From positions 3,720,001 to 3,784,000 of the forward strand of contig NZ_CP092535.1 in the NCBI RefSeq assembly GCF_022437945.1: a stretch of 64,000 nt of DNA, given 5' to 3'. The notes below the pieces were generated by a model. The model searched no databases. It saw only the letters and a program-made list of their open reading frames with translations, and was not told where the DNA came from. Made by a program: the position numbers and the translations under genes. This document shows positions 1 through 50,742 of this stretch, in pieces (position 1 is the first letter of the stretch; every line of letters begins with the position of its first letter). The stretch comes from Nocardioides sp. TF02-7 (lineage in GTDB: Bacteria > Actinomycetota > Actinomycetes > Propionibacteriales > Nocardioidaceae).

Positions 1-395
1 GGTCGGGGCCCTCGACGCCCGGTCGCAGCGCCTCGGGCCGGTCGTTGCGGTAGGCGAACTCGGCGAGCCCGCCCCGCACCAGCGCCGTGAGGAAGCCGCG
101 CTCCCGAGGGGTCAGGCCCCCGGGCACGACGATCCGGGCGGGGATGCAGGTCTTGTAGTAGCTGAGGCCGCCCGCCAGCGCGAGCAGCCGCAGCACCCGG
201 TCGAACGCCGCCCGGTCGGGGTGGGCAGCGGCGGTGCCGGGCAGCACCACGACCTCGTCGAACGACGCCAGCCGCTCCCCGCCGTCGTCGCGGACCTCGT
301 AGCGGAGCGTGACGGTCGCGTCGCCGTCGAAAAATCGGCTCCAGCACGTGGAACGCGAGCGACGCGCGCGGCAGCGACAGCAGCGGGCTCACCAC
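1..395 (-). CDS. murL: MurL-type UDP-MurNAc-L-Ala-L-Glu epimerase, 5' part
   Basis: N-terminal part of a gene running off the left edge; it starts at one of two adjacent GTG codons (393-395 or 390-392). After removing one T from the run at 331-335, the frame reads a continuous protein with the segments GGLSYYKTCIPARIV and LVRGGLAEFAYRND. These resemble the conserved N-terminal blocks (GxSYYK...P and LGEFAYRN) of the MurL family. In Xanthomonas and some actinobacteria MurL epimerises the terminal L-Glu of UDP-MurNAc-L-Ala-L-Glu to D-Glu. The catalytic C-terminal part lies outside the window. I place the family by remembered motifs only, so the call is moderate. It matters because the dcw murD in this window is degenerate. 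Confidence 0.6.
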   Translation of the reverse strand, partial: MVSPLLSLPRASLAFHVLEPIFRRRRDRHAPLRGPRRRRGAAGVVRRGRGAARHRRCPPRPGGVRPGAAAARAGGRPQLLQDLHPRPDRRARGPDPSGARLPHGAGAGRARRVRLPQRPARGAATGRRGPR

Positions 396-32786: not shown

Positions 32787-33328
32787 GCAGCACCGCACCC
32801 CAGCTCCGCAGTCGCATCCCCCGGTTCGCCGGGGCCGCGGTCGAGCGGGCCCGGCTCACCGTCGTCCCGCGGCCGCGCACCCGGCCGCGCGCACCGCGGG
32901 TGCCGTTCGTCATCCTCGTCAGCGTCCTGCTGCTCGGCGGCGTCGTCGGGCTGCTCCTGTTCAACACCTCGATGCAGCAGGCGGCCTTCCGCACCACGGC
33001 GCTGGAGCGGCAGGCGGGGGACCTGTCGGCCCGCCAGGAGGCGCTGCAGCTGGAGCTGCAGGAGCTCCGGGACGGCGACCGGCTCGCCCGGGTCGCGCAG
33101 CGCGAGCTCGGCATGGTGATCCCGGCCGGCGGCGTCGGCGTGCTCGAGCTCGGCAGCGGCCAGGTGGCCGGCGACCCGGAGCCGGCCCAGGCCGGCCAGC
33201 AGGTGCCCGTCGACCTGCCGGGGCAGCGCCGTCCGCCGGCCCTCGACCCCGGCCCGGTGCAGGTCGTCGACCGCGACGGCGTGCCGGACCGCGATCGGGA
33301 TCGCGCCCGATCTAGGTTGGGCAGGTGA
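32783..33328 (+). CDS. ftsL: FtsL-like septum formation protein
   Basis: 181 aa: basic cytoplasmic N-terminus, one membrane helix ([20 protein letters not shown]), a short periplasmic coiled coil ([20 protein letters not shown]), then [16 protein letters not shown] and a long Pro/Gln tail. Position between rsmH and ftsI and topology match the FtsL/Rv2164c slot of the divisome. Overlaps both neighbours by four bases (ATGA and GTGA). Confidence 0.8.
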
Positions 33329-35089
33329 GCCGACCCGACCGAGCCTCGCCGCTGCTGCGGCTGCGCGTGGGGTTCGTGCTGATCGCGATGGTGCTGTCGG
33401 TCTTCGCCGCACGGCTGGTCCAGCTGCAGGGCGTCGACCCGGCCGACTACGCCGCGATGGCCGCGGCCGAGGGCACCGAGTCCGTCGTCCTGCCGGCCGC
33501 CCGCGGCGAGATCCTCGACCGCTTCGGGGAGCCGCTGGCCGAGTCGGTCGACGGGCGGATGATCGTGGCCGACCCGGCGCTCACCGCCGACGACGCCCCC
33601 GAGCTGGCGACGTTCCTCGCCCGCCGGCTCGACCTCGACTACATCGAGGTGCTCGAGCGGCTGCGGGTGGAGGGCAGCCGGTTCCAGTACGTCGCCCGGC
33701 AGGTCCCCGCCAGCCTGGCCTCCGACGTGGTCGCCGACGCCGAGCGGAAGGGCTTCGTCGGCCTGTTCACCGAGCACGACCCGGTGCGGGTCTACCCCAA
33801 CGGCGACGTCGCCGCCAACCTGGTCGGCTTCCTCGGCACGCCGCGCAAGGACGGCTCGGCGCGGGCGCTCGCCGGGCTCGAGGCGGCGTTCGACGCCTAC
33901 CTCGCCGGCACCGACGGCGAGGCGCGCTACGAGACCGGCGCCGGCAACCAGATCCCGCTCGGCGACAACACGGTCACGCCGGCCGTCGACGGGTCCGAGC
34001 TGCGGCTCACGCTCGACCGCGACCTCCAGTGGTACACGCAGAAGGTGCTCCAGCAGACCGTCGAGGGCTCGCGGGGCGAGTCCGGCATCGCGGTCGTGAT
34101 GGACAGCCGCACCGGCGAGCTGCTCGCGCTCGCCGACTACCCGTCCTACGACGCGAGCGACCCCCCAGGAGTTCGCGGACCAGAAGCACCTGTTCAAGTC
34201 CAGCGCGCTGACCGACGTCTACGAGCCGGGCTCGGTGCAGAAGGTGCTGACGCTCAGCGCCGTGCTCGACGCCGGTCTCGGCACGCCCCGCCAGCAGTAC
34301 GTCGTCCCGCCGGTGCTCGACCGGCAGGACCGCCCCATCCACGACCACTGGGTGCACGGCGTCGAGCACCTGACCCTGGCCGGGATCCTCGCCAAGTCGT
34401 CCAACATCGGCACCGTGCTGGCCGCCGACCGGTTCCGCCCGGGCCAGCTGCGCCGCTACCTCACCGCGTTCGGCCTGGGCCGGCGTACCGACGTCGGCCC
34501 GCGCGGCGAGACCAAGGGCCTGCTGCCGAAGGGCGCGGCGTGGACCGACCAGGTCGACGACCGGATCGCGTTCGGCCAGTCGCTGTCGGTCAACGCGGTC
34601 CAGATGGTGGCGGCCGTCAACGCCCTCGCCAACGACGGCGTCCGGATCGACCCGAGCCTGGTCAAGGGCACCGCCACCCTCGACGACGGGACGCCGATCG
34701 GCACCGACCAGGTCGAGCGCCGCCGGGTCGTGAGCAGCGAGGCCGCCTGGCAGACGGCGCTGATGATGGAGCGGGTGCTCGACCCGGAGGACGGCGTCGC
34801 GTCCATCGCCTCGGTCCCCGGCTACCGGATCGCCGGCAAGACCGGCACGGCGCAGCGGGTCGCCGAGGAGTGCGGCTGCTACGACGGCAGCCACACCGCG
34901 TCGTTCGTGGGCTTCGGGCCGACCGACGACCCGCGGTTCACCATCTACGTCGTCGTGCACGACTCGCGCACCGGTGGCGGCTCGGCCGTCGCCGGCCCGG
35001 CGTTCGCGAAGCTGATGAGCTACAGCCTGCGGCGCTACGGCGTGAAGCGCACGGAGACCCGCCCCTCGCAGCTGCCCGTCGAGTGGTGA
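33325..35089 (+). CDS. ftsI: Division-specific transpeptidase FtsI (PBP2/PbpB)
   Basis: 587 aa after correction. Membrane anchor VGFVLIAMVLSVFAARLVQL, PBP-dimer domain (AARGEILDRFGEPLAES), transpeptidase motifs SxxK as EPGSVQK (Ser303, Lys306), SSN (358-360) and KTGTAQ (505-510). Cross-links septal peptidoglycan. One extra C in the run of six at 34161-34166 shifts the frame at SYDASDPQEF. No PASTA domain. Stop TGA shares its last base with the murE ATG. Confidence 0.94.
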
Positions 35090-36629
35090 TGGCCGACCCG
35101 ACCCCTGCCTCCGACGTCGCCGCCACCCGCCCCCAGCACCCGGTCGCGCTGCCGTTCGGCGACCTCGTCGCGCTGGTCCGGGACCGGACGGAGGCCCGGG
35201 TGACCGGGTCCGGGGGCCCGGTCACGGGCATCACGCTCGACTCCCGGCGGGTGCTGCCGGGCGACGTCTACGCCGCCCTGCCGGGCGCCCGCGCGCACGG
35301 CATCGAGTTCGTCGACCAGGCCGTGGCCGCGGGGGCGGTCGCGGTGCTGACCGACGAGGCGGGCGCCGGTGCGGCCGGCCGGGCGGGGGTCCCGGCGATT
35401 GTCGTGCCCGCCCCGCGCGCGGTGCTCGGCGAGGTGTCGGCCGGCGTCTACGGCCACCCGGCCCGGGCGATGCGGATGGTCGGCGTCACCGGCACCCAGG
35501 GCAAGACCACCGTCACCCGCCTCCTCGACGGCGGCCTCGGCGCCGCCGGCATCACCTCGGCCGTCGTCGGCACCGTCGGCACCCGGATCGCCGGCACGGA
35601 CGTCCGCACCTCGCTCACCACGCCGGAGGCGCCCGACCTGCACGGCCTGTTCGCGCGGATGCGCGAGCTCGCGGTGACCAGCTGCGCGATCGAGGTCTCG
35701 AGCCACGCGCTGGTCCTCGGCCGCGTCGACGGCGTGGTGTTCGACGTCGCCGTCTTCACCAACCTCGGCCGCGACCACCTCGACTTCCACGCCGACGTCG
35801 AGGACTACTTCCGCGCCAAGGCCTCGCTGTTCACGCCGGAGCGGGCACGGCTCGGCCTGGTGAACGTCGACGACGAGCACGGCCGTCGCCTGGCGGCCGA
35901 GGCCACGGTGCCCGTGCGCACGTTCTCGGCGGCCGGCACTGACGCCGACTGGACCGCGACCGACGTCCGGCTCGGGCCCGACGGCTCCACCTTCCGTCTC
36001 GCGGCCCGGGCGTCGACACCGACGCCCGGGTCGCCATCCCCGGCGACTTCAACGTGGCCAACGCGCTGGCCGCGGTCGCCGCCGCGGCCGAGGCGGGGCT
36101 CGACGTCGACCGGGTGGTCGCCGGCGTCGCGGCCGGCGGCGGCGTGCCGGGCCGGCTCGAGCGGGTGGCGACCGACCGCGGGTTCACGGTCGTCGTCGAC
36201 TACGCCCACAAGCCCGACGCCCTGGAGGCGGTGCTGCGCACGCTGCGCCCGGTCACGGCCGGCCGGCTCGTCGTCGTCATCGGTGCCGGCGGCGACCGCG
36301 ACCGCGGCAAGCGGCCGGTGATGGGCGCGATCGCGGCGACTGCCGCCGACGTCGTGGTCGTGACCGACGACAACCCGCGCAGCGAGGACCCGGCCGCCAT
36401 CCGCGCCGAGCTCCTCGCCGGCGCCCGCGAGGTCACCGAGGGGGAGCGCGCCGAGGTGCACGAGGTCGGCGGTCGACGTGCGGCCATCGCGTTCGCGCTC
36501 GTCGCCGCCCGCCCCGGCGACGTCGTGCTCGTCGCCGGCAAGGGCCACGAGACCGGGCAGGAGGTCGCCGGCGTGGTGCACCCGTTCGACGACCGCGAGG
36601 TCGTCCGCGAGATCCTGGGCGGACGATGA
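35089..36629 (+). CDS. murE: UDP-MurNAc-tripeptide synthetase MurE
   Basis: 513 aa. P-loop GTQGKT (135-140), TTPEAPDLH, EVSSHALVLGRVDGV, FTNLGRDHLDFH, VVDYAHKPDALEAVL, GAGGDRDRGKRP and DNPRSEDP near residue 427. DNPR marks the diaminopimelate-adding type; LL-DAP (as in Nocardioides walls) versus meso-DAP cannot be separated by this motif. One missing C at 36003-36005 splits the frame at RLAAPGVDTDARV. The stop overlaps murF (ATGA). Confidence 0.94.
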
Positions 36630-37997
36630 TCCCCCTCACCCTCGCCGAGGTCGCCGCCGTCGCCGGCGGCGAGCTGCACGGCGACCCGGACCTCCTCGTC
36701 ACCGGGGACGCGTACGTCGACAGCCGCTCGCCCGTCGCGGGCGGGCTGTTCGTCGCCCTGGTGGGCGAGCGCGCCGACGGCCACGACCACGCCGCCGGCG
36801 CCCATGCCGTGCTCGGCAACCGGCCGACGGCGGCACCCACCGTCGTCGCCGCCGACCCGGTCGCGGCGCTCGGCCGGCTCGCCCGCCACCTGCTCGACCG
36901 CACCGGCGCCCACGTCACCGCCCTGACCGGCTCCCAGGGCAAGACCGGCACCAAGGACTACCTGGCCGCCGTGCTCGCGCGCCTCGTCGGGGGCGGAGAA
37001 GGTCGTCGCCACGGCTGCCAACCACAACAACGAGCTCGGCGTCCCTCTCACCGTGCTGCGCGCGACGGAGGACACCAGCCACCTGGTCGTCGAGATGGGA
37101 GCCCGGGGGACCGGCCACATCGCCTACCTGTGCGACGTCGCGCCGCCCCGGGTGGCGGCGGTGGTCAACGTCGGCTCCGCCCACGTGGGCGAGTTCGGGG
37201 GCCGCGAGGCGATCGCGCGGGCCAAGGGCGAGATCGTCGAGGCGCTGCCTGCCGAGGGCACCGCCGTGCTCAACGCCGACGACCCGCTGGTCGCCGCCAT
37301 GCGCCACCGCACCCGGGCACGGGTGCTCACGTTCGGGACGGGCGGGGACGTGTCCTGGCGCGCGGTCGAGCTCGACGACCTCGGCCGCCCGGCGTTCGAG
37401 ATCGGCCACGGCGGCTCCTGGCACCCGGTGCGGCTGCGCCAGACCGGAGCCCACCAGGTGCTCAACGCGGCGGCGGCCGCCGCCCTGGCCGTCGCCGGTG
37501 GGTTCGGGCTGGGCGACGTGGCCGGGGCGCTGTCGGAGGCCACCTCGGCGTCGCGGTGGCGGATGGAGGTCCACGAACGGGCCGACGGCCTGGTCGTCGT
37601 CAACGACGCCTACAACGCCAACCCCGACTCGATGCGCGCGGCCCTGGACGCCCTCATCGCGATCGGGCGCGCCCGCGGCCGCCGTACGGTCGCGGTGCTG
37701 GGGGAGATGAAGGAGCTCGGCGACGAGCACGACAGCGGCCACCGCGCCGTCGGCGCGGACGCCGCCCGGCTCGGTGTCGACGTGGTGGTCGTCGTCGGCG
37801 CGGCGGCGGCGGGCATCGCCGACGCCGCCGGGTCGGGACCGGCCACCCGGGTGGTGCGGACCGAGGGGCGCGAGGAGGCGTCGACGTGGGTGCGGCAGAA
37901 TGCCGGACCGGAGGACGTCGTCCTCGTGAAGGCGTCGCGGGGCGCCGCGTTGGAATGGGTCGCCGACCAGCTGCTCGCCGGGTCGGACGCCCCGTGA
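36626..37997 (+). CDS. murF: UDP-MurNAc-tripeptide-D-Ala-D-Ala ligase MurF
   Basis: 456 aa. [21 protein letters not shown]-loop GSQGKTGTK (102-110), [64 protein letters not shown] and [11 protein letters not shown]. Adds D-Ala-D-Ala to the UDP-tripeptide. One extra G in the run 36989-36993 splits it at [15 protein letters not shown]. Confidence 0.93.
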
Positions 37998-38028
37998 CCC
38001 GGTCGGACGAGGAGAGGACGACGACACC

Positions 38029-39144
38029 GTGCTAGCGATCCTGCTCGGCGGCGGCATCGCCCTCCTGACCTCGCTGCTCGGCACCCAGGTCGCGATCCGG
38101 CTCTTCACCAAGTGGGGCTACGGCCAGGAGATCCGCGACGACGGGCCGACCAGCCACCACACCAAGCGCGGCACGCCCACGATGGGCGGCGTGGTGATCA
38201 TCGCCGCGGCGGTGCTCGGCTACTTCGGGGCCAAGCTGCTCACGCTCGACGCGCCCAGCGCGTCGGCGCTGCTGCTGGTGTTCCTCTTCGTCGGCATGGG
38301 CCTGGTGGGGTTCCTCGACGACTTCATCAAGATCTACAAGCAACGCAGCCTCGGGCTCCGCAGCAAGGCGAAGATGGTCGGGCAGACCCTGATCGCCCTC
38401 GTCTTCGGACTGCTGGCCCTGTCGCCGTGGCTGGCCGACGAGTCCGACGTCACGCCCGCCGGTTTCGTCCAGGTCGGCGACGTGTTCGCCACGCACAAGG
38501 TGTCGTTCCTGCGCGAGATCGAGTGGCTGGCCCTCCCGCTGCTGGTCGCGCTGCTGCTGATCTGGCTCCTCGTCACCGGCTTCAGCAACGCCGTCAACCT
38601 CACCGACGGCCTCGACGGGCTCGCGGCCGGCGCCAGCGTGATGGTGTTCGGCGCCTACACCCTGGTGAACATCTGGCAGTTCAACCAGTCGTGCGACGTC
38701 GCACCCGGCGACGGCTGCTACAACGTCCGCGACCCGCTCGACCTCGCGATCATCGCCGCCGCCATCACCGGGGCCTGCTTCGGCTTCCTGTGGTGGAACG
38801 CGTCGCCGGCCAAGATCTTCATGGGCGACACCGGCTCGCTCTCGCTGGGCGGGGCGCTCGCCGGGTTCGCGATCTTCACCCGCACCGAGCTGCTGCTGGT
38901 CGTGCTCGGCGGCCTGTTCGTGCTGATCACCGCGTCGGTGATGCTGCAGGTCGGCTGGTTCAAGGCCACCAAGCGGTTCACCGGCACCGGCAAGCGGCTG
39001 TTCCGGATGGCGCCGCTTCAGCACCACTTCGAGCTGCTCGGCTGGGAGCAGGTGACGATCGTGATCCGGTTCTGGATCATCACCGGGCTGTTCGTCGCCA
39101 CCGGCCTCGGCATCTTCTACGCCGAGTGGGTGGCGAGGCTGTGA
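38029..39144 (+). CDS. mraY: Phospho-MurNAc-pentapeptide transferase MraY
   Basis: 371 aa, ten hydrophobic helices. [36 protein letters not shown] (paired Asp), [29 protein letters not shown] and the His motif [13 protein letters not shown]. Makes lipid I. GTG start; its stop overlaps the next gene (GTGA). Intact, unlike most neighbours. Confidence 0.95.
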
Positions 39145-40154
39145 CCGACGTCGACGCCCTCGGTCGCGGGCAGTCCTGGCGCGGGGTGCGGGCGGTCGTC
39201 GCCGGCTTCGGCGCCAGTGGGGCGGCGGCGGTCGACAACCTGCTGCACCTCGACGCGGACGTGACCGCGGTGGCCGACGCGGTGGGTGAGGGGCTGCAAC
39301 CCCGCGCCGAGCTGCTCGAGGCGCTCGGCGCACGGTTCCGGGTCGGGAGTGACGCGACGGCGACCCTGCCCGACGACACCGACCTGCTCGTCGTCTCCCC
39401 GGGGTTCCCGCCCGGTGCGCCGCTGCTGGAGCAGGCGTCCGGGCGCGGCGTGCCGGTGTGGGGGCGAGGCCGAGCTCGCGTGGCGGCTCCGCGACCCCGA
39501 GCAGCCGGCCCCGTGGCTGTGCGTGGGCGGAGAGGGCCGCGAGACCGTCGCCACCGCCCTCGTCCCGATCCTGCGGGCCGCCGGCCTGCGCAGCGCCGCG
39601 GCGGGCGGCCACCGGCTCCCCGCTCACCGAGGCCGTGATGGACCCCGAGCCCTACGACGTGCTCGCGGTCGAGCTGTCGGGCCGCCAGCTCCACCACACC
39701 GCCGGCCTGGCCGCCGAGTCCGCCGCCGTGCTCGCAGTCGGGCAGCCGCCGGCGGGACTGGTACGCCGATCCCGACCCGGCCGGCGCCCACGCCCGGGAC
39801 ACCGGGCGGGTCTACGAGGGCGTCGAGCGGGCCTGCGTCTACAACCCGGCCGACCCGGCCACCGAGCAGCTGGTGCGCGAGGCCGACGTCGTCGAGGGCG
39901 CGCGGGCGATCGGCGTGACCCTCGGCATCCCGTCGGTCGGCATGCTCGGCGTGGTCGACGACATCCTGGTCGACCGGGCCTTCATCGAGGAGCGGCGGAG
40001 CAGCGCCGCCGAGCTGTGTGCCCTGGCCGACCTCGCCTCCCAGGAGCCCGCGTTCGTGACCGGTGCGCTGGCCGCGGCGGCGCTGGCCCGCGCCCACGGC
40101 ATCAGCCGCTCCGCCGTGCGCGACGGGCTGCGGGAGCTCCGCCCCGCGCCCTGA
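39141..40154 (+). CDS. MurD-like protein lacking ATP-binding motif and C-terminal domain
   Basis: 336 aa after removing three extra bases (39460-39464, 39609-39610, 39754-39756). N-terminal UDP-binding domain [14 protein letters not shown] and [13 protein letters not shown] are MurD-like, and [20 protein letters not shown] to [13 protein letters not shown] aligns with actinobacterial MurD. Where MurD has TGTNGKTT this has GGEGRETV (129-136), SSFQL is SGRQL, and the DHLDWH block is reduced to ADWYADP. The protein ends at RELRPAP, where MurD continues with about 140 residues including DDSKATN. No frame supplies these, and only about 130 bp remain before ftsW's ribosome binding site. Probably non-catalytic; remnant or scaffold. 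Confidence 0.8.
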
Positions 40155-40179
40155 CCGGCCTGCGCGACACGCACCGGAT

Positions 40180-41568
40180 GTGCGCGCCATCGGCGCCGGC
40201 GCCGGGGAGACTGGGACCGCGCTCTGGGACGGCGCGCCGTCGCGTCCCGGGCCGTCGTACGAGCAGCCGGGCCGGACAGGAGGGGTCGCCATCACCACCG
40301 CGCACCCCGAGGGCAGCACCCGGTTCCGGCTCCGACCGCCGGCCCGCCTCCTGCCGGCCCTGCGACCGGGACAGGCGGGGCGACCCGGCTGGACGGCGGC
40401 CCTGCGCGACGCCCTCGCCCGGCCGCTCACCACCTACTACCTGCTGCTCGGCTCGGTCGCGCTGCTGCTGACGATCGGGCTGCTCATGGTCCTCAGCGCC
40501 TCGAGCGTCGAGGCCTACCGCCAGACCGGCGACTCCTACGCGACGGTGAAGCGGCAGCTGATGTGGGTAGCGGTGGGGGTGCCCGCGGCCTGGGTCGCGT
40601 CCCGGGTGCCGCTGCGGTGGGTGCGCCGGCTCGCCTACGTCGCGTTCTCCGCCTCGCTCGTCCTGCTCGGGCTCACCGCCGTCATCGGCATCACCGTCAA
40701 CGGCAACCAGAACTGGCTCGCGATCGGCCCGCTGCAGATCCAGCCCTCCGAGGTCGCCAAGCTCTCGGTGGTCGTCTGGGCGGCGCACATCTACGCCAAC
40801 AAGGAGCGGCGGCTCGGCCGCAGCCTGCACGAGATGGTCGTCCCGGTCGTGCCCGGCCTGGCGCTCGCGACCGTGCTCGTCGTCGTGGGCCGCGACCTCG
40901 GCACGGCCCTGGTGTTCTTCGCGATCGCCGTCGGGATGCTCTGGGTGGTCGGCGTGCCCCTGCGGGTCTTCGCCATCGTCATCTGCGGCCTCGGCGCGAC
41001 CGCGCTCGCGCTGGCGGCCACCGAGTCCGAGCGGCTCGCGCGCATCACGACGTTCGTCGACCCCTTCAAGGACTACCACGGCACGGGCTGGCAGCCGGCC
41101 CACGGCCTCTACGCCATGTCCAGCGGCGGCATCTTCGGCGAGGGCATCGGCGCCAGCCAGCAGAAGTGGGGCGCCCTCCCGGAGGCCCACACCGACTTCA
41201 TCTTCGCCGTGCTCGGCGAGGAGCTCGGCCTCGTCGGCACCCTGCTCGTCGTCGGGCTGTTCCTGACGATCGCCTACGCCGCCCTGCGGATCGCCCGCGA
41301 GACCAAGGAGCCGTTCGTCCGCTACTGCACCTTCGGCATCGTCATCTGGCTGCTGGGCCAGATGATCATCAACGTCGGCATGGTGCTGGCGCTGCTGCCG
41401 GTGATCGGCATCCCGCTGCCGCTGGTGTCCTACGGCGGCTCCAGCCTGCTGCCGACCCTGGTCGCGCTCGGTCTGGTCGTGGGCTTCGCCCGCCGCGAGC
41501 CGGCGGCTGCCCGTGCCCTCGCGCAGCGCCGGCGCGCCCGCTCCACGGGCCTGTCGGCCCATCGGTAG
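40180..41568 (+). CDS. ftsW: Lipid II polymerase / SEDS protein FtsW
   Basis: Ten-helix SEDS glycosyltransferase: [96 protein letters not shown]. The start is unclear. GTG 40180 is the nearest standard start but has no Shine-Dalgarno. A strong AGGAGGGG at 40279 is followed 7 nt later by ATC 40291 in frame with ITTAHPEGS. Either a rare ATC start, a substitution error, or the GTG is used. Confidence 0.92.
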
Positions 41569-41578
41569 CCTTCGCGCA

Positions 41579-42684
41579 ATGCGAGTGTTGTTGGCCGGTG
41601 GCGGCACGGCAGGGCACACCTCACCGCTCCTGGCGACGGCGGCCGCGCTGCAGCGGCTCGACCCGTCGGTCGAGATCACCTGCCTCGGCACCCCCCGCGG
41701 CCTGGAGAACACCGTCGTGCCCGCGGCCGGCTACCCGCTCGAGCTGATCCCGCCGGTGCCGCTGCCCCGCCGACCGGGGGCCGACCTGGTCAAGGTGCCG
41801 GCCCGGCTGCGAGCCGCGGTGCGGGCCGCCCACGCGGTGCTCGACCGGGTGGACCCCGACGTCGTCGTCGGCTACGGCGGCTACGTGTCGGTGCCGGCGT
41901 ACCTGGCGGCCCGGCGCCGGCGGCTGCCGCTGGTCGTGCACGAGCAGAACGCGCTGCCGGGAATCGGCAACAAGCTCGGCGCCCGGTTCGCCACCAGGGT
42001 CGCGGTCAGCTTCCCGGGCACACGCTGCGCGGCGCCGAGTACGTCGGCCTGCCCGTGCGGCGGATGATCTCGCAGCTCGACCGGCCGGCGCTGCGGCCCG
42101 AGGCCCGGTCGTTCTTCGGGCTCGAGCCCGACCTCCCGACCCTCGTCGTGACCGGCGGCTCCCAGGGCGCGTGGAAGCTCAACCGTGCTGTCGCCGGCGC
42201 CGCTGCCGCGCTGGGCGCAGCCGGCGTGCAGGTGCTGCACGTCGTCGACCCGCGGGGGCTGGAGGACCCGGAGTGGAAGGAGCCGAAGGCGCAGCCGTCG
42301 GTGCCCTACGTCGTGGTGCCGTTCGTCGAGCGGATGGACCACGCGCTCGCGGCCGCCGACCTGATGGTCTGCCGCGCGGGCGCCAACAGCGTGGTCGAGG
42401 CCGCCGCCAGCGGGGTGCCCGCGATCTTCGTGCCGCTGCCGATCGGCAACGGCGAGCAGGCCCACAACGCCCGCCCGGTGGTCGACGCCGGCGGCGGGCT
42501 GCTGGTCGAGGACGCCGCGTTCACCGCGGCCTACGTCGCCGACACCGTGCCCGGGCTCGCCACCGACGGCGACCGGCTGGCCCGGATGGGAGCTGCCGCG
42601 GCGGGGCTGGTCCCCGCGGACGCCGACGAGCGGCTCGCGCGGATCGTCGTCGAGGCCGCCGGGTCGGGCAGGGGGGCGCGGTGA
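41579..42684 (+). CDS. murG: UDP-GlcNAc:lipid I GlcNAc transferase MurG
   Basis: 368 aa. [90 protein letters not shown] and [15 protein letters not shown]. Makes lipid II. One missing G at 42017-42019 breaks [22 protein letters not shown] 10 bp after ftsW; stop overlaps murC (GTGA). Confidence 0.94.
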
Positions 42685-44112
42685 GGATCCCGGTCCCGGC
42701 GGAGGTGCCGCCGGCCGAGGAGCTGGGCCGGGTGCACTTCGTCGGCATCGGCGGTGCCGGGCTGTCGGGCATCGCGCGGATCATGGCGCGCCGCGGCGTC
42801 CCGGTCACGGGCAGCGACGACAACGACACCCCGTTCCTCGCCGGACTGCGCGAGCTCGACGTCCCGCTCCACCTCTCCTACGACGCTGCGCACCTCGGCG
42901 ACGCCGACACCGTCGTCGTCACGACCGCGGCGCGCGAGACCAACCCCGAGGTGGTCGCGGCCCAGGAGCGCGGGCTCCGGCTGCTGCCGCGGTCGGCGGG
43001 ACTCAAGGCGGCGATGCACGGCCAGCGGGTCGTCGCCGTCGCCGGCACCCACGGCAAGACCACCACCACGTCGCTCCTCGCCGTCGCGCTGATCGAGGCG
43101 GGCGCGGACCCGTCGTACGTCGTCGGCGGGGTGCTGAGCGCCACCGGCCGCAACGCGGACCTCGGGCAGGGGGGAGTACTTCGTCGCCGAGGCCGACGAG
43201 AGCGACGGCGCCTTCCTCGTCTACGACACTCACGCGGCGATCGTCCTCAACGTGGAGGCCGACCACCTCGACATCTGGGGCAGCGAGGCCGCCTACGCCG
43301 CGGCGTTCGACGAGTTCGCCGACGGCATCGACCCCGCCGGGTTCCTCGTCTGCGGCGTCGACGACCCCGGAGCCGCCCGGCTGGCCTCCCGGCAGCGCGC
43401 CGCCGGGCGACGGGTGGTCACCATCGGCGAGGACGCCGGCGCCGACCTCCGCGCCACCGGCCTGCGCACCGCCGGCACCGGCACCACGTTCGACGTCGAG
43501 CGACGCGACGGCGCGGTGCTCGGCACGGTCGCGCTCCGGATCCCCGGCCGGCACTACGTCGTCGACGCGCTGGCAGCGCTGGCCACCGGGCTCGAGCTCG
43601 GCCACGACTTCACCGCCCTGGCGCGCGGGCTCGGCTCGTTCACGGGCACCGGGCGCCGGATGGAGCCCAAGGGCGAGGCCGGCGGGGTGCGGGTGCTCGA
43701 CAGCTATGCCCACCACCCGAGCGAGATCCGCGGCGACCTCGAGGCCGCCCGTGCCGTCGCCGGCGACGGCCGGGTCGTCGTCGCGTTCCAGCCGCACCTG
43801 GTCTCGCGCACGAGGATCTTCGGCCGCGCGATGGGCGAGGCGCTCGGCGCCGCCGACGAGGTGGTGGTCCTCGACGTCTACCTGGCCCGCGAGGACGCCG
43901 ACCCGGCGGTCACCGGCGCGGTGGTCGCCGACGCGGTGCCGCTCGCGGAGGGGCGGGTGCGCTACCTGCCCGACCGCGCCGACGTCGTACCGACGCTGCT
44001 CGGGCTCGCCCGGCCGGGCGACGTCGTGCTGACCCTCGGCGCGGGCGACGTGACCGCGCTGGCTCCCGAGCTGCTGGCCCTGCTGGCGGAGGGGGCGGCC
44101 GCCGGTGGCTGA
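42681..44112 (+). CDS. murC: UDP-MurNAc-L-alanine ligase MurC
   Basis: 476 aa. HFVGIGGAGLSGIARIM, VTTAARETNPEV, P-loop AGTHGKTTTT (GTHGKT 122-127), EADESDGAFL, LNVEADHLDIWG, VLDSYAHHPSEI, FQPHLVSRT. Adds L-Ala to UDP-MurNAc. Its full set of ligase motifs contrasts with the degenerate MurD-like gene. One extra G in the run 43169-43174 splits it before EYFVAEADE. The end overlaps ftsQ by 8 bp. Confidence 0.94.
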
Positions 44113-44840
44113 CCGGGGCGTGGAGCGGACGAGGAGACGGTTCGCGCGCCGGCAGTGGGCCCGCCGCTGGCTGACCTGGCGCTACGTGCTGGGCGTCGTG
44201 CTCGTCGTGGCGACGCTCGGCTTCGCGGTCTACGCCGTCTACTTCTCGCCGTGGCTGCGGGTCGAGGGTGCCGAGGTCGTGGGGGAGGGGCAGCTCACCG
44301 AGGCGGAGGTGCTCGCGGCGGCGGAGGTGCCGGACGGCGGCGCCCTGGCGCGGGTCGACCTCGACGCGATCGCCCGGCGGGTGCAGGCGCTGCCGGCGGT
44401 GCGGTCGGTCGACGTCTCCCGGCAGTGGCCGCACGAGGTGCGCATCGACATCGTCGAGCGGACCCCCCGTGGCCGTCGTCGACGACGGCGACTCCTTCAG
44501 CCAGCTCGACGCCGAGGGGTGGACCTTCGGCCGGCTCGCGAAGGCGCCCGACGGGCTGCCGCTGGTGGAGGTCGGGTCCGACGCCGACCGCGCGGCCCTC
44601 GTCGAGGCGGCGCAGGTCGTGGCGGCCCTCGACCCGGACGTGAGCGCCCGGGTGGAGGCGGTGGAGGTGCGCACCGTCGACCAGGTGCTGCTGCGGCTGC
44701 GGGACGGGCGCGAGGTGCGGTGGGGGAGCGCGGACCGGGCCGAGCAGAAGGCCGCCGTGCTGCTGGACCTGCTCGCGGCCGCGCCGGACGCGCGGACCTA
44801 CGACGTCAGCGTCCCCGGGCTCCCCACGACCCGGCCGTAG
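44105..44840 (+). CDS. ftsQ: Cell division protein FtsQ
   Basis: 244 aa: basic N-terminus, one membrane helix (YVLGVVLVVATLGFAVYAVY), POTRA domain (WLRVEGAEVVGEGQLTEAEV), VRSVDVSRQWPHEVRIDIVE and the FtsQ beta domain. Links FtsL/B-type proteins and FtsW/I in the divisome. One extra C in the run of six at 44463-44468 breaks ERTPVAVVDDG. The GTG start lies inside murC. Confidence 0.9.
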
Positions 44841-44938
44841 CGCGCTCCCGGCACAGGCGCCACGGATGCCGGCCGGCGTCCCGGCGTGTCTGCGCCGCCG
44901 GGCGCCGCTTCGTCCCTAGTGTCGTCGGCACGACGAGG

Positions 44939-44969
44939 TTGACATAACTATAACCCTCAGGATGAGGGT
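44939..44969 (+). promoter_or_regulatory. ftsZ promoter region with small inverted repeat
   Basis: A notably AT-rich stretch starting TTGACATAACTATAACCC, followed by ACCCTCA GGA TGAGGGT (7-bp arms, 44953-44969) and AAGGGTTGAGGG. TTGACA (44939-44944) is a good -35; TATAAC at 44950-44955 could be a -10 of an overlapping start. The CTATAACCCTC block resembles the conserved region upstream of ftsZ in streptomycetes. The remaining intergenic sequence up to the ftsZ GTG is a 130-nt leader. Confidence 0.6.
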
Positions 44970-45101
44970 AAGGGTTGAGGGACACGCCGGCCCGTCGCTT
45001 CCCCGCACGACCGTCCCGCCATCCCCAACAGCTGGCCCCACCAGCCGGCTGCCGACACCAACTGGCACACAGAACTGATTCGACGAGAGGTGAAAGCCGC
45101 C

Positions 45102-46310
45102 GTGGCAGCTGCACAGAACTACCTGGCCATCATCAAGGTCGTGGGCATCGGTGGTGGTGGGGTCAACGCCGTCAACCGGATGATCGAGGTCGGCCTCAAG
45201 GGCGTCGAGTTCATCGCGATCAACACCGACGCGCAGGCCCTGCTCATGAGCGACGCCGACGTCAAGCTCGACATCGGCCGCGAGCTCACCCGCGGGCTCG
45301 GCGCCGGCGCCAACCCCGAGGTCGGCGGCAAAGCCGCCGAGGACCACGCGGAGGAGATCGAGGAGGTGCTCAAGGGCGCCGACATGGTCTTCGTGACCGC
45401 CGGCGAGGGCGGCGGCACCGGCACCGGCGGCGCCCCGGTCGTGGCCCGGATCGCGCGCTCGCTCGGCGCGCTGACCATCGGCGTCGTCACCCGGCCGTTC
45501 GCGTTCGAGGGCCGGCGCCGCGCCGGCTCCGCCGAGGAGGGCATCGCCCGGCTCCGCGAGGAGGTCGACACCCTCATCGTCATCCCCAACGACCGGCTGC
45601 TCTCCATCAGCGACCGCAACGTGTCGGTGATGGACGCGTTCCGCCAGGCCGACCAGGTGCTGCTCCAGGGCGTCTCCGGCATCACCGACCTGATCACGAC
45701 GCCGGGCCTGATCAACCTCGACTTCGCCGACGTGAAGTCGGTCATGGCCAACGCCGGGTCCGCGCTGATGGGCATCGGCTCCGCCCGCGGCGAGGACCGC
45801 TCGGTGGCGGCCGCCGAGATGGCGGTGTCGAGCCCGCTGCTCGAGGCGTCCATCGACGGCGCGCACGGCGTGCTGCTCTCGATCGCCGGCGGCTCCGACC
45901 TCGGCCTGTTCGAGATCAACGAGGCGGCGGCGCTGGTCGCCGAGGCCGTGCACCCCGATGCCAACATCATCTTCGGCGCGACCATCGACGACGCCCTGGG
46001 CGACGAGGTGCGGGTCACCGTGATCGCGGCCGGCTTCGACGGCGGCACGCCCAAGCGCCGGGAGGAGGGCAGCGCGCTGCGACGCGAGGCCCGGCCGCAG
46101 CAGACGCAGGAGGAGACCCGCGCCGCCGTGGCCGCAGCCGCCAACCGGCGCGAGCCCGCCGCCGAGCGGACCGAGCGGCCGGCCCCGGCGCCCGCCGAGC
46201 GGTCGGAGCGCCCGGCCGAGAAGCCGAGCGTGCCCGTGGGCGCCCGCCCGGCGCCCGCGCCGATGCAGCTCGACGACGACGACCTCGACGTCCCCGACTT
46301 CCTCAAGTAG
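45102..46310 (+). CDS. ftsZ: Cell division GTPase FtsZ
   Basis: 402 aa. [28 protein letters not shown], tubulin signature GGGTGTGG (103-110), [16 protein letters not shown]7 loop (205-210) and GSARGEDR, then a Glu/Arg/Pro-rich linker and C-terminal peptide [12 protein letters not shown] that should bind SepF and FtsW. GTG 45102 is chosen because actinobacterial FtsZ begins AAxQNYLAVIK; AGAGGTGAAAG lies upstream. Intact. Confidence 0.96.
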
Positions 46311-46322
46311 GTCCCGGAGGAC

Positions 46323-47057
46323 ATGTACGCCTACCGCAGCACCCACGGCCCCGTCGAGCTGGCGTTCACCGACCGGCTCGGCGGGGTCAGTGCTGCGCCC
46401 TACGACGAGCTCAACCTCGCGCTCACGGGGGCGACGACCCGGCCGCGGTGGCGCGGAACCTGCGCACGGTGCTCGCCGACTTCGCCCCCGACGCCGACCC
46501 GGCGCCCGCGATGGTCCAGGTCCACGGACCCGACGTGACGTACGTCGACCACGGCGAGGCCGCCGGCTCCGAGCGGGTCGAGTGCGACGGCCAGGTCACC
46601 GACCGGCCCGACCTGGTGCTCGTGGTGCGGGTGGCCGACTGCGTGCCGGTGCTGCTCGCCGACGCCGAGGCCGGCGTGGTCGGCGTCGCCCACGCCGGGC
46701 GGGCCGGGATGGTGCGGGGAGGTGGTGCCGCGCACGGTGGAGCGGATGACCGCGCTGGGCGCCCGCCGGGTGACGGCCTGGGTGGGCCCCCACATCTGCG
46801 GCCGCTGCTACGAGGTGCCGGCGCAGCTGCAGGACGAGGTGGCCGCCGCGGTCCCGGAGAGCAGGAGCACCACCTCGTGGGGGACCCCGGGCCTCGACAT
46901 CGGGGCGGGCGTCCGCGCCCAGCTCACCGCGGTCGGCGTACCGGTCGTCGACGCCGCCCGCTGCACCCGCGAGTCGCCCGACCTCTACTCCTACCGCCGC
47001 GACGGCGCCGCCGCCGGCCGGTCCGCCGGCCTCGTGCGGCTGCGAGGCGCGGCATGA
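46323..47057 (+). CDS. pgeF: Peptidoglycan editing factor PgeF (laccase-domain protein)
   Basis: 244 aa of the YfiH/YlmD family that removes L-Ser-type misincorporations from UDP-MurNAc precursors. AFTDRLGGVSAAPYDELNLA, MVQVHGPDV, VADCVPVLLAD (metal Cys), GVAHAGRAGMV (His) and GPHICGRCYEVP. One missing G at 46428-46432 and one extra G at 46715-46718 cancel in total length. It sits between ftsZ and yggS as usual. Confidence 0.9.
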
Positions 47058-49782: not shown

Positions 49783-50742
49783 ATGGCCCGCAGCACGAAG
49801 AAGTCGTTGGCGGGACGCACCGTGTCCGCGGCCGGCAAGATCATCGGCCGCCGGCGCTCCGCCAACGGTGAGGACGCGAGCCCGTCCCGGACCACCGCGT
49901 CGGTGAAGAAGACGACGGCGAAGAAGGCCGCACCCGCCAAGAAGGCGGCTCCGGCGAAGAAGGCGACGCCCGCGAAGAAGGCGGCTCCGGCGAAGAAGGC
50001 GACGCCGTCGAAGAAGGCGGCCCCCGCCAAGAAGGCGACGCCCGCCAAGAAGGCCGCACCGGCCAAGAAGGCCGCCCCCGCCAAGAAGGCGACGCCCGCG
50101 AAGAAGGCCGCGCCGGCCAAGAAGGCGACGCCCGCGAAGAAGGCCGCACCGGCGAAGAAGGCTTCCGCGACGAAGAAGACGTCGCCCGCCACGAAGTCGA
50201 CCACGAAGACCTCGCCGGCCCCGAAGCCGGCACCGACCACGAAGGCGGCGCCGGTGAAGAAGACGACCAAGCGGGCGGCGCCCGTGAAGAAGGCAGCACC
50301 GAAGAAGGCAGCACCGAAGAAGGCGGCGTCCGCGCAGAAGGCGGCGGCGACCGCGCTGCCGGTGCTCGACAGCGAGGCGAAGTGGTCGTCGGCGGAGCTG
50401 GCCGAGGTGATGGCCGAGCTCCACGAGCAGCGCGAGCACAGCGCGCAGATCGTCGCCGAGCAGGAGGCCGACCTGTCCGGGCTGCTCCGCGACGCCGGCG
50501 ACGGCGCCGGGCAGGACCAGGCCGACATCGGCGCCACCAGCTTCGAGCGCGACCACGAGCTCACCGTCCTCAACCACGAGCGCGAGAAGCTGGCCCAGAT
50601 CGACCGGGCGCTCGCGCGCATCGAGAACGGCACCTACGGCGTGTGCGAGTCGTGCGGCAACCCCATCGGCAAGATGAGGTTGATGGCGTTCCCCCGTGCG
50701 ACACTGTGCATGACATGCAAGCAGCGCGAGGAACGCCGGTAG
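49783..50742 (+). CDS. DksA/TraR zinc-finger protein with histone H1-like Lys/Ala/Pro tail
   Basis: 319 aa. Residues about 40-190 are a low-complexity array of PAKKA[A/T] pentads like eukaryotic histone H1 or HupB tails, preceded by SLAGRTVSAAGKIIGRRR. The C-terminal part is a DksA/TraR module: coiled coil AELAEVMAELHEQREHSAQI, DQADIGATSFERDHELTVL and zinc finger CESCG...CMTCK. Such proteins could bind DNA through the tail and RNA polymerase's secondary channel through the coiled coil. The last 28 bp overlap lspA. Confidence 0.88.
   Translation: MARSTKKSLAGRTVSAAGKIIGRRRSANGEDASPSRTTASVKKTTAKKAAPAKKAAPAKKATPAKKAAPAKKATPSKKAAPAKKATPAKKAAPAKKAAPAKKATPAKKAAPAKKATPAKKAAPAKKASATKKTSPATKSTTKTSPAPKPAPTTKAAPVKKTTKRAAPVKKAAPKKAAPKKAASAQKAAATALPVLDSEAKWSSAELAEVMAELHEQREHSAQIVAEQEADLSGLLRDAGDGAGQDQADIGATSFERDHELTVLNHEREKLAQIDRALARIENGTYGVCESCGNPIGKMRLMAFPRATLCMTCKQREERR

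Follow-up and report, generated by a model that had tools for sequence, protein, structure and literature searches.

Recurrent truncation of the dcw-cluster MurD in Nocardioidaceae that carry MurL and MurD2, and its probable retention as a pseudoenzyme

Introduction

Why does a dcw cluster carry, between mraY and ftsW, a murD gene whose product has neither the ATP-binding loop nor the C-terminal domain of the ligase, and what does the remaining protein do? This question is raised by the window, i.e. the whole stretch of 64,000 nucleotides analyzed here (G000:C1:3720001-3784000), which lies on the single 4.75-Mb contig of a Nocardioides genome with a completeness score of 70%. The features referred to below are as follows, in positions of the window unless a genome coordinate (G000) is given.

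41-322, reverse strand: N-terminal part of MurL, in a frame that differs from that of the remainder outside the window
G000:3719053-3719982, left of the window, reverse strand: rest of MurL, directly beside MurD2 (3717777-3719027)
38029-39144, forward strand: mraY, intact frame, overlapping the murD start
39141-40154, forward strand: MurD, truncated and catalytically dead, lying between mraY and ftsW, with N-terminal and central domains only
39141-39464, forward strand: N-terminal (UDP-sugar type) domain of MurD in the first frame, by direct reading
39465-39761, forward strand: stretch between three apparent +1 frameshifts (~39465, 39604-39625, 39755-39761), containing most of the former catalytic block
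39526-39549, forward strand: degenerate P-loop position, GGEGRETV instead of TGTNGKTT, by alignment with relatives
39762-40151, forward strand: retained second half of the central domain, ending at the border between central and C-terminal domains (dN/dS 0.11 among truncated orthologues)
40291-41568, start approximate, forward strand: ftsW (open reading frame 40063-41568; homology to the sister genome from 40414)

Results

The murD gene of the window has lost the P-loop and the C-terminal domain

The window murD starts with GTG, overlapping the mraY stop codon. Direct reading showed three apparent +1 shifts, after which the starting frame is restored, and the pieces 39141-39464, 39466-39603, 39605-39760 and 39762-40154 match MurD in that order. 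The N-terminal piece matched PF21799 with 30.4 bits (cut-off 27) and TIGR01087 with 36.1 bits, below the cut-off of 211.95, and 249/334 aligned residues of the protein are identical to those of the intact MurD of the sister genome, G193.

The sequence-only reading of this DNA had described a MurD without P-loop or C-terminal domain, and both losses were confirmed. The motif GxxGK(T/S), which 24/24 full-length relatives have where the window protein reads GGEGRETV, was absent from all three forward frames of 39141-40154. The reported replacement of SSFQL by SGRQL was also seen in the alignment, the EDH block is likewise degraded, and E. coli Lys115, Asn138, His183 and Lys198 correspond to R, G, P and T. 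The protein stops at ~338 aa (482-501 aa in the 24 intact relatives), directly where intact relatives run on into the C-terminal domain, and no detached copy of this domain was found in the genome, where the five PF02875 matches (E<=0.001) belong to murE, murF, murC, MurD2 and FolC. We considered whether FolC, encoded at G000:3258k, might be a MurD in disguise and rejected this, since its sequence is folylpolyglutamate-synthase-like and secA lies next downstream (both names are our own attributions). The other Mur ligases do keep their motifs, as had been stated: GTQGKT in MurE, GSQGKT in MurF and GTHGKT in MurC.

The quality of the assembly bears on the three shifts. Compared with G193, one frame switch each was found in ftsI, murE, murF, murG, murC and ftsQ, and none in mraY, ftsW and ftsZ (ftsI, ftsW, murG, ftsQ and ftsZ being named by recognition); the same comparison scored zero in murD, where one alignment spanned the shifted middle, and the count of three comes from direct reading. 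Because completeness is low and neighboring genes show single frame switches, assembly errors appear to be scattered through this region, and the three murD frameshifts are probably errors of this kind, although three within 1 kb exceed the count in any neighboring gene. The loss of the P-loop itself is another matter: sequencing error was rejected as its cause, as no forward frame restores the motif and 22 other assemblies share the truncation.

Two further observations were made in the window. A gene near 46.5-47.0 kb has one apparent frameshift compared with the sister genome (dcw region 33325-47045), and the product of 49783-50742 (forward strand) has a long AAPAKKA/ATPAKKA repeat and, after it, a zinc-finger end that we take to be DksA/TraR-like.

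MurL and a putative MurD2 are present and MurI is not found

The D-Glu step had been proposed to be performed another way, by MurD2 and MurL, and the rest of the genome bears this out. A search for a second MurD or MurD2 and for MurI returned one MurD-type gene above the TIGR01087 cut-off, G000:3717777-3719027 (reverse strand, 290.8 bits), which is MurD2 and adjoins MurL, and no match to MurI (TIGR00067) at E<=10 anywhere in the genome. MurL matched NF041275 in two stretches, positions 130-444 (331 bits) and 21-112 (47.5 bits), with E 8e-99; the curated cut-off is 700, and all 28 MurL matches in the genus fall below it. According to a review, Glu, Arg, Pro and Phe of Xanthomonas MurD2 replace E. 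coli Asp182, Lys348, Ala414 and Leu416, and the first two substitutions (Asp182, Lys348) determine specificity for L-Glu (PMC8788868). At E. coli positions 182/348/414/416 the residues are E, R, P and F in the MurD2 of the window genome and D, K, A and M in the 24 full-length dcw MurDs, and the 27 MurD2 rows have E in 23 (D in 4), R in 27, P in 27 and F in 23 (Y in 4). The P-loop Lys and Lys198 are present in 27/27 MurD2 proteins of the family. By the marker residues reported for MurD2, this protein is a putative L-Glu ligase.

We also considered D-Glu production by D-amino-acid transaminase and rejected it: among 33 genomes (27 MurL-positive genomes of the family and 6 others) none had a match above the cut-off and 33/33 had sub-threshold matches alone, under a cut-off so strict that it was passed by 1/14 control genomes. 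As a separate observation, a gene with a weak TIGR01121 (aminotransferase) match lies within ~2 kb of MurL in G164, G170, G230 and G271 (L075, L077, L091, L096).

Truncation of MurD accompanies MurL in the genus and family

Among the 215 Nocardioides genomes of the genus set, MurL was matched in 28, strongly in 25 (E 7e-69 or better) and distantly in three (1e-26 to 1e-30). MurI was above the cut-off in 189/215 genomes and in 0 of the 25 strong-MurL genomes, four of which (G170, G175, G199, G271) had weak sub-threshold matches; a single genome, G275 (84% complete), had neither MurL nor MurI. The three distant-MurL genomes, G193, G241 and G264, possess MurI and an intact MurD; their MurL-like proteins are encoded at G193:C7:11819-12370, G241:C2:585018-585872 and G264:C1:3242167-3243021. 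Two more MurL-positive genomes without a MurI match, G060 and G147, belong to other genera of the family, whose sampling outside the genus was limited to the 149 family genomes drawn. MurD2 adjoins MurL in 27/27 MurL-positive family genomes. The MurD2-MurL pathway would thereby be extended to about one in nine of the Nocardioides genomes examined (25/215).

We compared the mraY-ftsW regions of the window, the 26 other MurL-positive family genomes, the three distant-MurL genomes (grouped with the controls) and 17 MurL-negative genomes hand-picked from the 187 in the genus that gave no MurL match. MurD was truncated in 23/27 MurL-positive family genomes (the window, 20 other genus genomes, G060 and G147) and full-length in 20/20 MurL-negative or distant-MurL genomes. 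Loss across a clade, which the sequence-only reading had left to an alignment of homologues, is thus seen as the same truncation in 22 other MurL-positive genomes of the family and in 0/20 others. In 23/23 truncated copies the protein ends 4-16 residues past the VR(D/N/T)G motif, and 22/22 copies other than that of the window read as one uninterrupted frame of 304-348 aa; a lone stop falls within the tblastn match of L022 (G164) and of L045 (G324) because the match overruns the gene's own end. Because these 22 orthologues, from other assemblies, are equally truncated in single open frames, chance or sequencing error cannot account for the loss.

The four remaining MurL-positive genomes, G176, G207, G210 and G259, have a full-length MurD with intact motifs. 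They form one group with MurL-MurD2 and without MurI (L026, L033, L034, L041), and possibly represent a recent switch caught ahead of decay. The order mraY-murD-ftsW was conserved across the 46 family loci compared. Furthermore, when the truncated alignment was used as query, a truncated MurD was found in three of the best 80 of 571 named loci, those of N. gilvus, N. malaquae and N. ferulae. Second mraY-like genes, one of them partial, were noticed in seven MurL-positive genomes (L068-L074) and in some MurL-negative genomes too; within the stretches fetched, tblastn found neither murD nor ftsW at L068-L074.

Outside the family the stump is not found beside mraY

MurL was found in 20/393 genomes of the class, 16 of them outside the family. 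No murD lies between mraY and ftsW in nine of these 16 (G482, G390, G379, G665, G404, G488, G512, G610, G346); in two, G342 and G466, mraY is followed by what we take to be pgeF, then MurL and MurD2; two, G490 and G566, have just a C-terminal piece of murD adjoining mraY; and three, G580, G374 and G405, have a full-length murD beside mraY. The loci of G466 and G342 (L183, L186), from another family, have the order mraY-pgeF-MurL-MurD2 within the dcw cluster, with neither murD nor ftsW directly after mraY, and those of G490 and G566 (L187, L188) hold the half of murD opposite to that kept in Nocardioidaceae. MurL and MurI co-occur outside the family, with MurI above the cut-off in G405, G374 and G566 and just below it in G580.

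A stump of N-terminal plus central domains beside mraY was thus found in 0/13 non-full loci outside the family, vs 23/23 non-full copies within it. Judged on the dcw loci beside mraY, retention of the stump appears to be a trait of Nocardioidaceae, and any second role of MurD would not be general, because 13/16 MurL-positive genomes outside the family have no stump there.

The truncation arose repeatedly

Truncation required 11 changes on a MraY+FtsW tree built from 45 genus rows, with G060 and G147 excluded, and 12 on a quick tree that included these two other genera; parsimony counts of this kind do not separate gain from loss. A MurD tree built without the catalytic columns gave eight changes, a count lowered by the clustering of many truncated rows on long branches. 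Inheritance of one ancestral truncation by all copies was rejected by AU tests on both trees (p-AU 1.6e-54 for MraY+FtsW and 1.5e-68 for MurD), in which the group constrained to one clade had been named after the alignment was seen. In the MurD tree the window copy is paired with the intact MurD of G193 (support 97), G230 with G152 and G167 (97), and G170 with G150 (93). Of ten independent pairs differing in MurL, nine were concordant in truncation and one showed no difference (sign test p 0.004).

The MurL tree, compared by eye, is unlike the species tree; for example, G147, of another genus, is placed with G170 (support 80). This fits horizontal gain of MurL on more than one occasion, as far as trees compared by eye can suggest. 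Two unlike MurL types accompany the truncated MurD.

Active-site residues are replaced and other parts of the protein persist

The residues lost and kept were counted in the 23 truncated forms. The equivalent of Lys115 is present in 2/23, of Asn138 in 3/23, of His183 in 2/23 and of Lys198 in 0/23, vs 24/24 full forms in each case, and that of Glu157 in 3/23 truncated forms. We take Lys198 (carbamylated) and His183 to be catalytic in MurD, and Asn138 and His183 to contact the substrate. GxxGK(T/S) is retained in 2/23 truncated forms, G183 (GTKGKT) and G230 (GTHGKT), vs 24/24 full forms; because these two keep the P-loop without the C-terminal domain, loss of the domain can come before decay of the active site. 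Kept in 23/23 truncated forms are the Arg of EGAR, the Arg and Phe of RAF, the Glu of SAAEL, and the Arg and Gly of VRDG. Columns conserved in the full form were retained in >=80% of truncated forms at 47/63 positions in the N-terminal domain, 19/65 in the catalytic block and 52/65 in the second half of the central domain.

These counts weigh on two other explanations. The stump might still be an active ligase whose C-terminal domain is supplied in trans, and the MurD fold predicted for the N-terminal and central domains of an orthologue would suit this idea; with Lys198 retained in no truncated form, Lys115 in two, and a separate C-terminal domain looked for in the window genome (E<=0.001) and not found, we give it next to no weight. 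Alternatively, the truncated MurD might belong to the replacement pathway as a regulatory or structural subunit, which docks MurD2 or MurL or senses a precursor. Its occurrence solely with MurL-MurD2 in the genomes tested, and the persistence of non-catalytic parts while active-site residues were replaced, would be expected of such a subunit. We nevertheless consider this explanation unlikely, given that the 13 non-family MurL genomes described above show no stump between mraY and ftsW and that two unlike MurL types accompany it. Furthermore, a role in precursor binding is argued against because Asn138 (3/23) and His183 (2/23), the presumed contacts to UDP-MurNAc-L-Ala, are lost in most truncated forms.

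The truncated MurD is under purifying selection in relatives

Selection was assessed by pairwise Nei-Gojobori dN/dS in 10 truncated, 9 full and 4 mixed pairs, with pooled values from four, five and three of these, respectively. Ratios were 0.11-0.29 among the truncated forms and 0.07-0.25 among the full forms, and the pooled values were 0.16 (0.13-0.19, four independent pairs) for truncated and 0.17 (0.14-0.20, five pairs) for intact MurD. Within truncated pairs, dN/dS was 0.11 in the second half of the central domain and 0.19 in the former catalytic block, which suggests that this block did not become free after the switch. In the three truncated-vs-intact sister pairs, it was 0.55 in the catalytic block and 0.24-0.29 in the other parts. 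The window copy gave 0.40 overall against its sister, higher than among the relatives. These ratios indicate that purifying selection is acting on the truncated MurD in relatives of the window genome.

A pseudogene that is being lost, and that relatives still carry for the time being, would explain the three apparent frameshifts of the window copy and the dN/dS raised during the transition (catalytic block, 0.55). In simulations of neutral decay, at the divergences concerned, 16-38% of frames were still open with mutation toward 95% GC, though 0.3-2.8% at 72% GC. Open frames by themselves therefore prove little, and we place the weight on dN/dS and on recurrence. Instead of ratios near 1 and broken frames, the relatives have a ratio of 0.16 with an upper bound of 0.19, like that of working MurD, single open frames in 22/22 other copies, and an identical end point in 23/23; we thus find loss in progress quite improbable as a general explanation.

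It could also be supposed that the DNA or its translation alone matters, as a spacer, for translational coupling, or as the site of an internal ftsW promoter; the overlap of the murD start with the mraY stop in the window and the constant gene order in the 46 family loci would be in keeping with this. However, the dS of the retained parts (0.44-0.49) is not below that of mraY (0.33) or ftsW (0.38) in the same pairs, whereas dN is low, and because dS is not lowered the constraint appears to be on the protein and not on the DNA. In addition, mraY runs directly into ftsW in the nine other MurL-positive genomes without an intervening murD. We regard this explanation as very improbable.

Predicted structure and published contacts of MurD

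An AlphaFold2 model of the truncated N. gilvus MurD had a mean pLDDT of 93.3, which partly reflects an input alignment in which 46/49 rows were intact MurD, and by Foldseek it matched solved MurDs with TM up to 0.80. The model suggests that the truncated MurD is compatible with a two-domain fold and says nothing on stability. Together, the PF21799 match, the placement with G193 in the tree and this orthologue model point to MurD descent and to the MurD fold of the N-terminal and central domains.

Protein contacts of active MurDs have been described. In M. tuberculosis, Mur synthetases are reported to interact with FtsW, FtsQ, FtsZ, Wag31 and the SepF orthologue but not one another, and MurD contacts MurI and PknA (PMC3605390). 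In Thermotoga, another study describes binding of MurG to MurD, MurE and MurF and contact of MurD with MreB as well (PMC6420597). Finally, residues 55-354 of A. baumannii MurD are reported to be enough for binding the GTPase MigC (PMC12208494). The 'truncated MurD' of that article, considered as a natural precedent, is a laboratory construct and was set aside. A naturally truncated or dead MurD was not found by title or abstract in the literature searched, which lay mostly outside subscription journals.

Discussion

We propose that addition of the second amino acid to the peptidoglycan precursor would have passed to MurD2, as L-Glu ligase, and MurL, as epimerase, encoded together elsewhere in the genome. 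With MurI lost, the dcw MurD would have been released from catalysis; its C-terminal (glutamate) domain would then have been cut away where the domains meet, with replacement of the residues for ATP and substrate. The remaining stump would most likely serve as a scaffold or adaptor for the assembly of MraY, MurG, FtsW and division proteins in Nocardioidaceae. We assign a probability of about 0.68 to this reading as a whole, i.e. takeover by MurD2-MurL followed by retention of the dcw MurD as a non-catalytic pseudoenzyme, most likely a scaffold. Replacement, loss, recurrence and selection are read from sequence, and the scaffold role is suggested by the selection together with the published contacts of active MurDs.

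The more general form of this proposal is that MurD of Nocardioidaceae would have a second, catalysis-free function, seated in the N-terminal domain together with the latter half of the central one, and that with each gain of MurL-MurD2 and loss of MurI natural selection would strip away the chemistry and the third domain and preserve these parts; we think it reasonably probable. Of the earlier suggestion that the relic is kept as scaffold, regulator or spacer, a function of the protein is favored by the purifying selection in relatives and a mere spacer is disfavored, while our choice of scaffold over regulator is an inferred one. Several findings count against the pseudoenzyme reading: the three shifts and the dN/dS of 0.40 in the window copy, the four MurL-positive genomes with an intact MurD, the P-loops of G183 and G230, and the lack of interaction among the mycobacterial Mur synthetases. 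By its frameshifts and higher dN/dS, the window copy may itself be decaying.

Structural roles of Mur ligases are hard to test, as deletion is lethal for metabolic reasons. If the proposal is true, the metabolic need has gone in several lineages while the protein has been kept, so that its residual function would be open to deletion and pull-down experiments in these soil bacteria, and the retained residues would indicate the part of MurD that may form contacts. It would also mean that evolution has repeatedly separated what a core cell-wall enzyme does as a catalyst from what it does as a structural component.

What is new here, by comparison with known systems, would be a MurD pseudoenzyme of two domains that recurs in Nocardioidaceae and is maintained by selection. 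With catalytic MurD (TIGR01087; EC 6.3.2.9), the stump shares its gene position between mraY and ftsW and the sequence of the N-terminal and central domains, and it differs in having no P-loop, carbamylated Lys, catalytic His or PF02875 C-terminal domain. The adjacent MurL and MurD2 of the window genome, and the failure to find MurI there, resemble the MurD2-MurL arrangement of Xanthomonas oryzae, Micromonospora and Salinispora, as presented in a review that nowhere names Nocardioides and in its available part describes no retained dead dcw MurD (PMC8788868). In the complexes of Mur enzymes scaffolded by MurG and MreB and in the mycobacterial network, MurD likewise takes part in protein contacts (PMC6420597, PMC3605390); however, the MurDs of Thermotoga and M. 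tuberculosis are active enzymes, whereas in the stump the putative contacts would be all that remains.

Pseudoenzymes such as pseudokinases retain a fold from which the catalytic residues have gone, and selection on them persists. The stump is like pseudoenzymes in general in its kept fold, lost catalytic residues and maintained selection, and it differs from them in that the loss in MurD is recurrent (8-12 changes) and has removed one third of the protein at the same border.
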